Below, piece after piece: positions 54,598-57,757 of a stretch of DNA of 64,000 nt (position 1 is its first letter; every line of letters starts with the position of its first letter). The DNA comes from Microvenator marinus (GTDB taxonomy: Bacteria; Myxococcota_A; Bradymonadia; Bradymonadales; Bradymonadaceae), in assembly GCF_007993755.1 (NCBI RefSeq), contig NZ_CP042467.1, forward strand, positions 4,860,001-4,924,000, read 5' to 3'. The position numbers were made by a program, and so were the translations under genes. A model generated the notes under the pieces. It made no database searches. It was not told the origin of the DNA and was given only the letters and a program-made list of their open reading frames with translations.

Positions 54598-56790
54598 ATG
54601 GAATTTCATGGATTGAAACTCGACGGCTTTCAGGCCGACGCCGTACGCCACATTCAGGATGGGAAGTCGGTGTTGGTGGCCGCACCCACGGGAACGGGAA
54701 AGACCCTGATCGCGGACTACCTGATTGAGCAGGTGCTCAACGATGGCGGAGAGGTAATCTACACCGCTCCTATCAAGGCGCTCTCGAACCAGAAATACCG
54801 AGAGTATTCGCGTCAATACGGCGAGGAGAAGGTCGGGCTGGTCACGGGTGATATCGTGATCAATCGCGACGCTCCAGTACGCATCATGACAACCGAAATC
54901 CTGAGAAATATCCTTCTTCAGGAGCATGAGGATCTCAACACTTCGGCCGAGGAGGCTCAAGAGCTTCGAGACACAGCACCGGCTAGCTACATGCGCCTTC
55001 CAGAGACGAGCCGTCTCCGCGCTGTAATCGTGGACGAGATCCACTTCGTAGATGACCCGGATCGCGGCACCGTTTGGGAAGAAATGCTCATCTACTTGCC
55101 GAGAACGGTGAGAATTCTGGGCCTTTCCGCAACGCTTTCGAACCTCGAGCAATTCGCGAGCTGGCTTTCTCATATCCGAGGCACTCAGGTGGAGGTCGTG
55201 CGCGAAAACCAGCGTGCCGTTCCTCTCGAATTCCACATGGTCAATCAGGAGACGGGCCTCGTCTCCCCGAAGGACTTTGAAAAGTCATGGCGAAGGTGGC
55301 GAAAGGAGAAGAAGGAAAATCGCTCGGACCGCGACTCACAAAGCAAGGGTCGAGGCCGACGAGACAAAGGCAGGGGAGGGCGGCGCAACGACTTCGCCGA
55401 GCGCACGCGCCACGTAGATGTCTTTAGGCTTTTGCCCGCCAACCAATACCCCGCGCTCTACTTCATCTACTCTCGCAAGATGACCGAACAGCTCGCGTTC
55501 GAACTCTCCAGAACACCGGTGGGTAGGACGCTTGCGCGGAGCGCAAAAACTCAGGAAATCTCCAAGCGTATCGCGCCGTTTGAGTCCGAGTACCCCGAGG
55601 TCTTTACGACGCACCTCAAGGGACTTCTGGAGAAAGGGATTGCTTTCCACCACGCGGGTCTTCACGTGGCGCTCAAGGCGTTGGTAGAGGAGCTCTACGA
55701 GGCCAAACTTATACAAGTTCTCTACTGCACGTCGACCTTTGCGCTCGGTATCAACATGCCAGCGCGCACGGTGATTTTTGATTCGCTAGAGAAATTTGAC
55801 GGGGTGGAAATGGTCCCCCTGAGCGTACGCGAGTTCATGCAGATGGCCGGACGCGCGGGTCGCCGTGGAATTGATACCGAAGGCGACGTGGTCATGCGCA
55901 TGGACTTTAGCGAGTTCAGCGAAGCGTCAACTTTCTTTAAAACCCTGCTCGGAGGCCGAAGCGAGCCAGTCTCCTCGTCCTTCAATCTTTCCTTCAATTC
56001 GGTTGTGAACCTTTTGGAGCGTTACTCGGACGACGAGATTCGCGTCATCTTGGGGCGCTCGTTTAAAGCCTATCAGTACACCGAGGACGTTGAGTTTTTA
56101 GAGGAGGATCTGCGCGAGTTGAGGGCGGCGAAGCCTTCGTCAGACAAGCAGCTGCGCGAATACAATCTGGAAGAAGCAGTGCTTGAGCGAGCGATTGCTG
56201 AGGCCGGGCGTCCCCATCTCTGGGAAAACTTCCTCAAGAAGGTCGAGTTCCTGAGAACGTTTGGTTACCTAAATCCCGACGGCTCGTTGCGTTCGGCCGC
56301 AAAAGTACTCAAGAAGATCCAGTTCCAAGAAATACTGGTGACAGAGCTCTTGCTCGAAGGAATCTTCGAGGACAAGTCTCCCGAAATGATCTTCGGCATC
56401 ATGTGCGGACTCGTGCAGACGCTTCCAAGAACGGCCAGAGTTCGTCCACCCGACTCCGAAGAATGGTGGTCTACTTTCAGCGCTGTGGAGGCTGTCTTCA
56501 ACTCCGATATCGTTCAAGCGGCGTACGGCCTGGTGCAGGGCGAACCTGTGTGTACCCCAGCGATCATGCCGCTCGGAGAAGCCTGGGCAAACGGAAGTAC
56601 ACTCCCCGAGATTTTGGAGATGGTTTCAAACCCCACCGATTTGTCGGGGGATTTGGTCGGCTCGTTTAGACGTGGCAAAGACCTTGTCGGTCAGCTTCGC
56701 AATCTTTACGACGACGATCCGGACCGTCGTAAAGAACTCACCAAGCTCATACGCGCTGTGACACGCGATGAGGTCGAAGTTATCGACTAA
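54598..56790 (+). CDS. Ski2-like DExH helicase
   Basis: The protein has 730 residues. Motif I is APTGTGKT (about 29-36), Ia APIKALSNQKY, II VDEIH, III LSATLSN, and IV-VI include ALGINMPARTVIF and QMAGRAGRRGID. This matches Ski2/Mtr4/HelY-type RNA helicases. A basic low-complexity insert rich in Arg, Gly and Lys at about 235-265 (RDKGRGGRR) splits the two RecA lobes. The C-terminal 200 residues are helical. Bacterial members may act in RNA turnover, but that is inference. The gene overlaps the convergent methyltransferase gene by four bases. Confidence 0.93.
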   Translation: MEFHGLKLDGFQADAVRHIQDGKSVLVAAPTGTGKTLIADYLIEQVLNDGGEVIYTAPIKALSNQKYREYSRQYGEEKVGLVTGDIVINRDAPVRIMTTEILRNILLQEHEDLNTSAEEAQELRDTAPASYMRLPETSRLRAVIVDEIHFVDDPDRGTVWEEMLIYLPRTVRILGLSATLSNLEQFASWLSHIRGTQVEVVRENQRAVPLEFHMVNQETGLVSPKDFEKSWRRWRKEKKENRSDRDSQSKGRGRRDKGRGGRRNDFAERTRHVDVFRLLPANQYPALYFIYSRKMTEQLAFELSRTPVGRTLARSAKTQEISKRIAPFESEYPEVFTTHLKGLLEKGIAFHHAGLHVALKALVEELYEAKLIQVLYCTSTFALGINMPARTVIFDSLEKFDGVEMVPLSVREFMQMAGRAGRRGIDTEGDVVMRMDFSEFSEASTFFKTLLGGRSEPVSSSFNLSFNSVVNLLERYSDDEIRVILGRSFKAYQYTEDVEFLEEDLRELRAAKPSSDKQLREYNLEEAVLERAIAEAGRPHLWENFLKKVEFLRTFGYLNPDGSLRSAAKVLKKIQFQEILVTELLLEGIFEDKSPEMIFGIMCGLVQTLPRTARVRPPDSEEWWSTFSAVEAVFNSDIVQAAYGLVQGEPVCTPAIMPLGEAWANGSTLPEILEMVSNPTDLSGDLVGSFRRGKDLVGQLRNLYDDDPDRRKELTKLIRAVTRDEVEVID

Positions 56791-57608
56791 CCCTCGGCTT
56801 CTTGAAGCTCTTGCAGGCCTTGAAAGCGGCGGATCGAGAGGTCGAGATATTCATCGCTCTGGTCGAGCCCGACGTATTTACGACCGTGTGAAACCGCAGC
56901 GATTCCAGTCGTTCCCGAACCCGAGAACGGGTCGAGAATCGTTGCGCCTTCGTCGGTGCTCGCCAGCACAATGCGGCGCAAAAGCTCCATCGGCTTTTGG
57001 GTAGGGTGTTTGCCGAACGTCTTCTCGTCTTTTCGAGGTGACATGATCGACCATAGATTTTTCATCTGTTTGCCGCCGTTCTCTTCCTTCATCAGCGCGT
57101 AATTGAAGGTGTACTTGGCTTTATGGTTCTTGGCCGCCCAGAGAATGGTCTCCGTCCCGTGCGTGAAGTATCTGCACGAGAGATTCGGCGGAGGATTGAC
57201 CTTGAACCACGCGATATCATTGAGGATCTTGAAGTCCAGAAGCTGCATAGCAAAGCCGATGCTGTAGATCACGTGATGGGTCCCTGAAACCCACATGGTG
57301 CCGTTGGGCTTGAGAAGTCGTTGGCACTCGTTGAGCCACGCCATGTTGAACTCATGATTGGCTTGAGCACCCTGGCTTCGGTCCCAGCGGCCCTTATCCA
57401 CAGAAACCATGCGGCCGTTCTTACACGTTACGCCACCGTTGCTGAGAAAGTACGGTGGGTCAGCAAAAATCATATCGAATTGTGCGTCAGCCATGCCGCG
57501 CATCAGTTCGAGTGAATCACCCTGAAAAAGTGTAAATTCGGGACTCTGAAAATAAGGTGCAGATAGCGTCTGCGGCTGGTCGTTTGACCAGATCTCCATC
57601 GATGACAT
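56787..57608 (-). CDS. Beta-class N6-adenine (or N4-cytosine) DNA methyltransferase, orphan
   Basis: The protein has 273 residues from ATG 57608, which has AGGGA upstream; an in-frame ATG at 57635 lies inside a hairpin and has no site. The catalytic motif IV is ADPPYFLSNGG at about 49-59, and the SAM-binding motif I, DPFSGSGTTGIAA, is near the C-terminus, the order of the beta class (as in HinfI, RsrI and CcrM). It transfers a methyl group to a specific DNA site. No restriction enzyme gene is adjacent, so it may be an orphan regulator or a protective methylase. The leader contains two AGGA-loop hairpins that may regulate it. The target sequence cannot be read. Confidence 0.93.
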   Translation of the reverse strand: MSSMEIWSNDQPQTLSAPYFQSPEFTLFQGDSLELMRGMADAQFDMIFADPPYFLSNGGVTCKNGRMVSVDKGRWDRSQGAQANHEFNMAWLNECQRLLKPNGTMWVSGTHHVIYSIGFAMQLLDFKILNDIAWFKVNPPPNLSCRYFTHGTETILWAAKNHKAKYTFNYALMKEENGGKQMKNLWSIMSPRKDEKTFGKHPTQKPMELLRRIVLASTDEGATILDPFSGSGTTGIAAVSHGRKYVGLDQSDEYLDLSIRRFQGLQELQEAEG

Positions 57609-57626
57609 GACTTCCCTGTCGCGTCG

Positions 57627-57646
57627 CGTTCGCATCCTTGCGAACG
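57627..57646 (-). promoter_or_regulatory. AGGA-loop hairpin 1 in the methyltransferase leader (CsrA/RsmA-like site?)
   Basis: A perfect eight-base-pair stem encloses a four-base loop that reads AGGA on the minus (mRNA) strand. The decamer GCAAGGATGC at its core is shared with hairpin 2. The known CsrA SELEX consensus contains CARGGAUG in a hairpin loop. It ends about 18 bases before ATG 57608. Confidence 0.45.
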
Positions 57647-57687
57647 GGCCTTCACGGCCAGTTTTAATGCGGTTCTCCGGTCGAAAT

Positions 57688-57701
57688 GCGCATCCTTGCG
57701 C
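57688..57701 (-). promoter_or_regulatory. AGGA-loop hairpin 2 in the methyltransferase leader
   Basis: A perfect five-base-pair stem (GCGCA/TGCGC) has the same AGGA loop on the minus strand, and the same GCAAGGATGC core as hairpin 1. The two hairpin centres are 58 bases apart. A flanking GGTC/GACC pair at 57679-57682 and 57704-57707 may extend it with an internal loop. Confidence 0.4.
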
Positions 57702-57757
57702 TGGACCAAACCGCCCTCAAAACGAGCTTATGACGCCACGGATCGGTGTCAAAAAAA

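Follow-up and report, generated by a model that had tools for sequence, protein, structure and literature searches.

The window analysed here, a 64,000-nt stretch of the Microvenator marinus genome, carries on its minus strand a gene for a DNA methyltransferase of the N6_N4_Mtase type with a DPPY motif, preceded by a leader in which several hairpins are predicted to expose a GGA triplet. By sequence, the closest solved structures to the enzyme are CcrM (6pbd, the best score) and HpDpnA, with the DpnA structures reaching E 6.5e-28. The features of the gene and its leader are listed below by window position, each with the evidence on which it was called.

56787..57608, minus strand: orphan DNA methyltransferase, beta-class N6_N4_Mtase, DpnA/CcrM-like, 273 aa from the revised start (PF01555, E 2.3e-56)
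57609..57620, minus strand: candidate CsrA-type site 3, GAC(AGGGAA)GUC, overlapping the ribosome-binding site, motif at -10 (ortholog comparison)
57627..57646, minus strand: candidate CsrA-type site 2, hairpin CGUUCGCA(AGGA)UGCGAACG, motif at -32 (sequence and fold)
57647..57659, minus strand: GGCC(GUGAA)GGCC, probable decayed remnant of a GGCCA(C/A)GGAUGGCC hairpin (leader comparison)
57688..57701, minus strand: candidate CsrA-type site 1, hairpin GCGCA(AGGA)UGCGC, motif at -90 (loop unpaired in the predicted fold)
57725..57730, minus strand: putative -10 box TAAGCT, 16 nt from the -35 box (a weak match; TA...T in several orthologs)
57741..57744, minus strand: GATC in the promoter spacer, 2 nt past the -35 box, candidate methylation-feedback site (ortholog comparison)
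57747..57752, minus strand: predicted -35 box TTGACA of the methyltransferase promoter (in 20 orthologous regions TTGAC(A) stands 5' of the GGA sites)

The longest open reading frame of the methyltransferase starts at an ATG within hairpin 1. This start was rejected: it lacks a proper ribosome-binding site, and the frame does not extend more than 18 nt 5' of the conserved start in three orthologous loci (L024, L027 and L029). The probable start is instead the ATG at 57608-57606, and for the same two reasons both hairpins probably lie in untranslated leader.

The gene is not part of a restriction-modification operon, its neighbours being mtnC-like and helicase genes. Homologs of 51-57% identity are adjoined by D12-class methyltransferase genes, and in two of these loci by a DpnII endonuclease; no DpnII endonuclease and no D12 methyltransferase turned up in the M. 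marinus genome, so that the enzyme is, as far as tested, the orphan that a preliminary description of this DNA had taken it to be. Since such homologs sit in DpnII restriction operons, it is likely to be GATC-specific. The gene is convergent with a Ski2/Hel308-like helicase gene (window 54598-56790), with an overlap of 4 nt; a similar helicase gene adjoins the ortholog in locus L067, and the neighbourhood is therefore at least partly conserved.

Two of the leader hairpins had been described before, with coordinates and stems exactly as found here: CGTTCGCA(AGGA)TGCGAACG at 57646-57627, with a stem of 8 bp, and GCGCA(AGGA)TGCGC at 57701-57688, with a stem of 5 bp, both on the minus strand. Their cores are identical, as had been claimed, but the shared stretch is CGCAAGGATGCG, which at 12 nt is two longer than the one then given. 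The AGGA loops are likewise present, but the rule derived from CsrA and RsmE favours ANGGAN hexaloops over tetraloops, and in these terms the leader motifs have loops of AAGGAU (twice) and AGGGAA (once). CsrA ligands selected by SELEX have the consensus RUACARGGAUGU, with the loop as an ANGGAN hexaloop (PMC7652899). Nor are the two hairpins the full set, as the leader contains three CsrA-type sites: the third, GACAGGGAAGTC, lies 6 nt 3' of the lower hairpin with the ATG at 57608-57606 immediately after it, and is at once a GGA in an ANGGAN-type loop and the ribosome-binding site.

The three motifs, at -90, -32 and -10, are separated by 58 and 22 nt. The predicted fold of the RNA (133 nt, -50 kcal/mol, z -2.4) places all three GGA motifs in loops. 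None of 500 dinucleotide shuffles of the window leader had a pair of GGA-loop hairpins with stems of 5 bp or more, and three CANGGANG motifs were reached in 0.2% of shuffles.

Of 26 Bradymonadales genomes, 21 have an ortholog of the methyltransferase (61-76% identity), and none of the 13 genomes with a completeness of 90% or more and a contamination of 5% or less is without one; further N6_N4 methyltransferases, more distantly related, occur in some of these genomes. In 16 leaders of the family, the 120 nt nearest the start codon contain 43 CANGGANG motifs where shuffles give 1.28, and the opposite strand has none; the same leaders have 21 GGA-loop hairpins against 0.54 expected. The orthologs behind these counts are not statistically independent, and for some of them the start was chosen with knowledge of the motif, a choice that has no strong effect on the motif counts. 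Motifs recur near -90, -67 and -11. Between -85 and -96 a GGA site is present in most orthologs. Near -67 most genomes have a hairpin resembling GGCCA(C/A)GGATGGCC, of which the window has what is probably a decayed form, GGCC(GTGAA)GGCC, and instead a hairpin at -32. The site that overlaps the Shine-Dalgarno sequence, ACA(A/G)GGA(A/T)GT, is found at the same position and with nearly the same sequence in 13 of the 16 leaders: two orthologs read ACAAGGATGT and two ACAGGGATGT, both exact matches to the consensus core, and the window reads ACAGGGAAGT. Outside the motif, stem pairs three to six of 27 distinct upstream sites are complementary far more often than in partner shuffles (P <=0.003) and each occurs as several pair types; the loop is constant and the stem varies by compensatory pairs. 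The pattern has exceptions within the order: loci L032 and L040 have no CsrA-type site and L028 only one, and in the order's other family, f2, sites are fewer, although two of five leaders (L037 and L039) still have a hairpin just 5' of the Shine-Dalgarno sequence. Examined homologs outside the order lack a leader of this type. That it is kept in most of the order's relatives examined suggests that DNA methylation is set at the level of translation.

A transcript from the predicted promoter would start near 57717-57719. A generic promoter scan of the leader region found no promoter, missing the TTGACA box owing to the weak -10 box, and the promoter call therefore rests on the comparison of orthologs. 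The conserved predicted -35 box lies 5' of both hairpins and of the third site, all of which may lie in the transcript. Of 20 orthologous promoters 18, that of the window among them, have a GATC 3' of the -35 box and no more than 20 nt from its start, with 4.9 expected from local density; the typical arrangement is TTGACA-NN-GATC. Over the upstream 450 nt of 21 loci there are 198 GATC sites against 81 expected, and dense clusters (up to 49 per kb) stand 5' of many orthologs (L020-L040); the window has no such cluster. Given the GATC in orthologous promoters, feedback by methylation on the methyltransferase gene is plausible as a second layer of control.

CsrA controls carbon metabolism, motility, biofilm formation and transcription factors. 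The M. marinus genome encodes it in a single copy (C1:3265317, E 3.7e-23), so that a gene whose presence the preliminary description had proposed to check does exist, with its key RNA-binding residues kept: in an alignment to solved RsmE and CsrA structures the protein retains L4, R6 and R44, of which L4 and R44 have been highlighted as critical for RNA binding (PMC7652899). Of the 26 genomes of the order 24 have csrA, and none of the 21 with the methyltransferase lacks it. FliW, sought as a CsrA antagonist, is absent, and no CsrA antagonist was identified; a search for CsrB/Rsm sponge RNAs (Rfam clan CL00106) gave RsmW as its best match, which at 17.9 bits (E 0.48) falls short of the gathering score, 52.

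The regulation by a CsrA-like protein that had been proposed for this gene is supported, as a prediction, by GGA sites in orthologs that are strand-specific, overlap the Shine-Dalgarno sequence and covary in their stems, together with the presence of csrA. We consider it probable that the methyltransferase leader is a target of CsrA (RsmA-type), with translation repressed as in E. coli glgC. From what the computations established (the sites, their strand specificity and spacing, the Shine-Dalgarno overlap, conservation, stem covariation and csrA) we infer binding by CsrA, repression as its direction and a signal that governs it. In such a mechanism a CsrA dimer would hold the ANGGAN loop of the -32 hairpin, with the -90 hairpin as a further tether, and would bridge from the upstream hairpin to the GGA in the ribosome-binding site at -10; the ribosome would then be excluded and the methyltransferase left untranslated, as with glgC, until an antagonist released CsrA and the enzyme could be made. 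Both spacings, 58 and 22 nt, fall inside the 10-63 nt over which a CsrA dimer can bridge (PMC7652899), and elsewhere in the genome a PilZ gene is preceded by hairpins of this type, which also counts for CsrA. Counting against it is the 8-bp stem of site 2, more stable than those of most SELEX ligands, which have at most 4 contiguous pairs (PMC7652899); the weak -10 box, the orthologs with one site or none and the absence of FliW weigh on the same side.

CsrA might bind the leader and yet activate the gene, by stabilising the mRNA or by remodelling the leader to free the ribosome-binding site, which here lies inside a predicted local hairpin; flhDC and ymdA are activated by CsrA through leader sites (PMC7652899). 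We regard this as unlikely, given that CsrA on the conserved site, which coincides with the ribosome-binding site, should compete with the ribosome, and that the hairpin around that site has only 3-4 bp in most orthologs.

Alternatively, the palindromes could act in DNA, as operators for a dimeric transcription factor or as sites bound by the methyltransferase itself, and control would then be transcriptional. Many DNA methyltransferases are controlled at transcription, and the hairpins are perfect inverted repeats 3' of a predicted promoter; but the motif is confined to one strand (43 against 0), its central NGGA is constant and its arms vary, where an operator would do the opposite, one of the sites is linked to ribosome binding, and the same motif recurs with different arms before the unrelated PilZ gene. 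We therefore hold an operator to be quite improbable. Constant loop, varying stem, single strand and the link to the ribosome-binding site together fit recognition of an RNA loop by CsrA rather than a DNA operator.

The 12-mer core has six occurrences in the genome of 5,847,748 bases, and the window leader accounts for two of these; the 10-mer core has 19 against 9 for its reversed control. In most other genomes the count of GGCCANGGATGGCC is 0-3, usually with one copy in the methyltransferase leader; two genomes of one genus, G002 and G017, carry dispersed GGCCAGGGATGGCC arrays (89 and 18 copies). Those arrays notwithstanding, the recurrent intergenic palindrome family that the preliminary description offered as its alternative, in which the hairpins would be REP-like copies with no regulatory role, is largely refuted by the copy counts and by the variation of stems among orthologs, and its remaining probability is very small. 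In G002 and G017 (loci L140-L146) the copies form tandem arrays with a unit of 31-45 nt and a hairpin GCCAGGCCA(GGGA)TGGCCTGG, mostly in intergenic-looking sequence; transcripts of these arrays, if made, could titrate CsrA.

Taken as a signal by itself, the generic palindrome CGCANNNNTGCG was rejected: it occurs at 255 places in comparison with 155 for the reversed control, a mild excess, so that the palindrome alone says little and the signal lies in the loop and its context. At least three CANGGANG motifs within 100 nt on one strand were found at 2 places in an 864 kb sample of the M. marinus genome, with 0.31 expected, the 20-kb sampling grid having happened to include the PilZ locus, already known from a pattern search; the two places are the methyltransferase leader and the leader of a PilZ-domain gene 5' of a dapF-like gene. 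The PilZ leader (C1:408956-409040; L121:18956-19040) has GTCA(CGGA)TGAC, GGCACA(AGGA)TGTGCC and GGCCA(AGGA)TGGCC in series, and is a candidate for a second CsrA-type leader of this genome. In another genome, G004, the GGCCAAGGATGGCC hairpin is also found at two loci, before a PilZ gene (L074) and 5' of a DAP epimerase gene (L090). A search for CAAGGATG followed by CANGGANG 8-38 nt on gave 8 matches genome-wide and none for the reversed control. GGA-loop hairpins also stand near the starts of an FtsQ-like gene (L150, C1:746317-746345) and an ABC-ATPase-like gene (L153, C1:4845641-4845679), both named by eye, which may be considered candidate further targets of CsrA; the other four of the 8 matches, mostly in open frames, look like chance.

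Returning to the proposed repression of the methyltransferase by CsrA, a wider picture can be proposed tentatively: a double lock, in which the promoter would be sensitive to methylation of its own GATC and the mRNA held by CsrA, so that metabolic or lifestyle state would set adenine methylation genome-wide in the Bradymonadales. This extension seems to us possible, though somewhat short of an even chance. The open literature that we searched holds no report of CsrA/RsmA control of a DNA methyltransferase, which may have been described elsewhere. The mechanism itself is of a known kind; what is new is the class of target, its conservation and the joint GATC promoter. If an orphan methyltransferase is a multi-site CsrA target across many genera, the epigenome would be linked directly to an RNA regulator of global reach, and control by CsrA would suggest how the dosage of an orphan methylase is set. 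The motif could also be used to define the Csr regulon of the group, of which we found no description in the literature searched.

Three known systems bear comparison. DpnA (M2.DpnII) of DpnII-type restriction systems is represented by the homologs of 51-57% identity in D12/DpnII loci; unlike these, the M. marinus enzyme has neither endonuclease nor D12 methyltransferase in its genome, and the CsrA-type leader is missing from the examined homologs outside the order. Caulobacter CcrM is the cell-cycle methyltransferase whose promoter contains its own methylation sites; its control as known is transcriptional and proteolytic, and not by CsrA. Like CcrM, which supplies the best-scoring solved structure (6pbd), the present enzyme is an orphan conserved in its clade, but at 234 bits it is far under the CcrM equivalog cut-off of 830. 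The E. coli glgC leader (PMC7652899) differs in that its target is a metabolic enzyme and not a DNA methyltransferase, and the leader described here, whose sites are predicted from sequence, has an additional upstream (third) hairpin and a conserved promoter GATC. The two leaders are alike in their several GGA sites, with a hairpin just 5' of the ribosome-binding site and a second site overlapping it, at a spacing that lets a CsrA dimer bridge the two.
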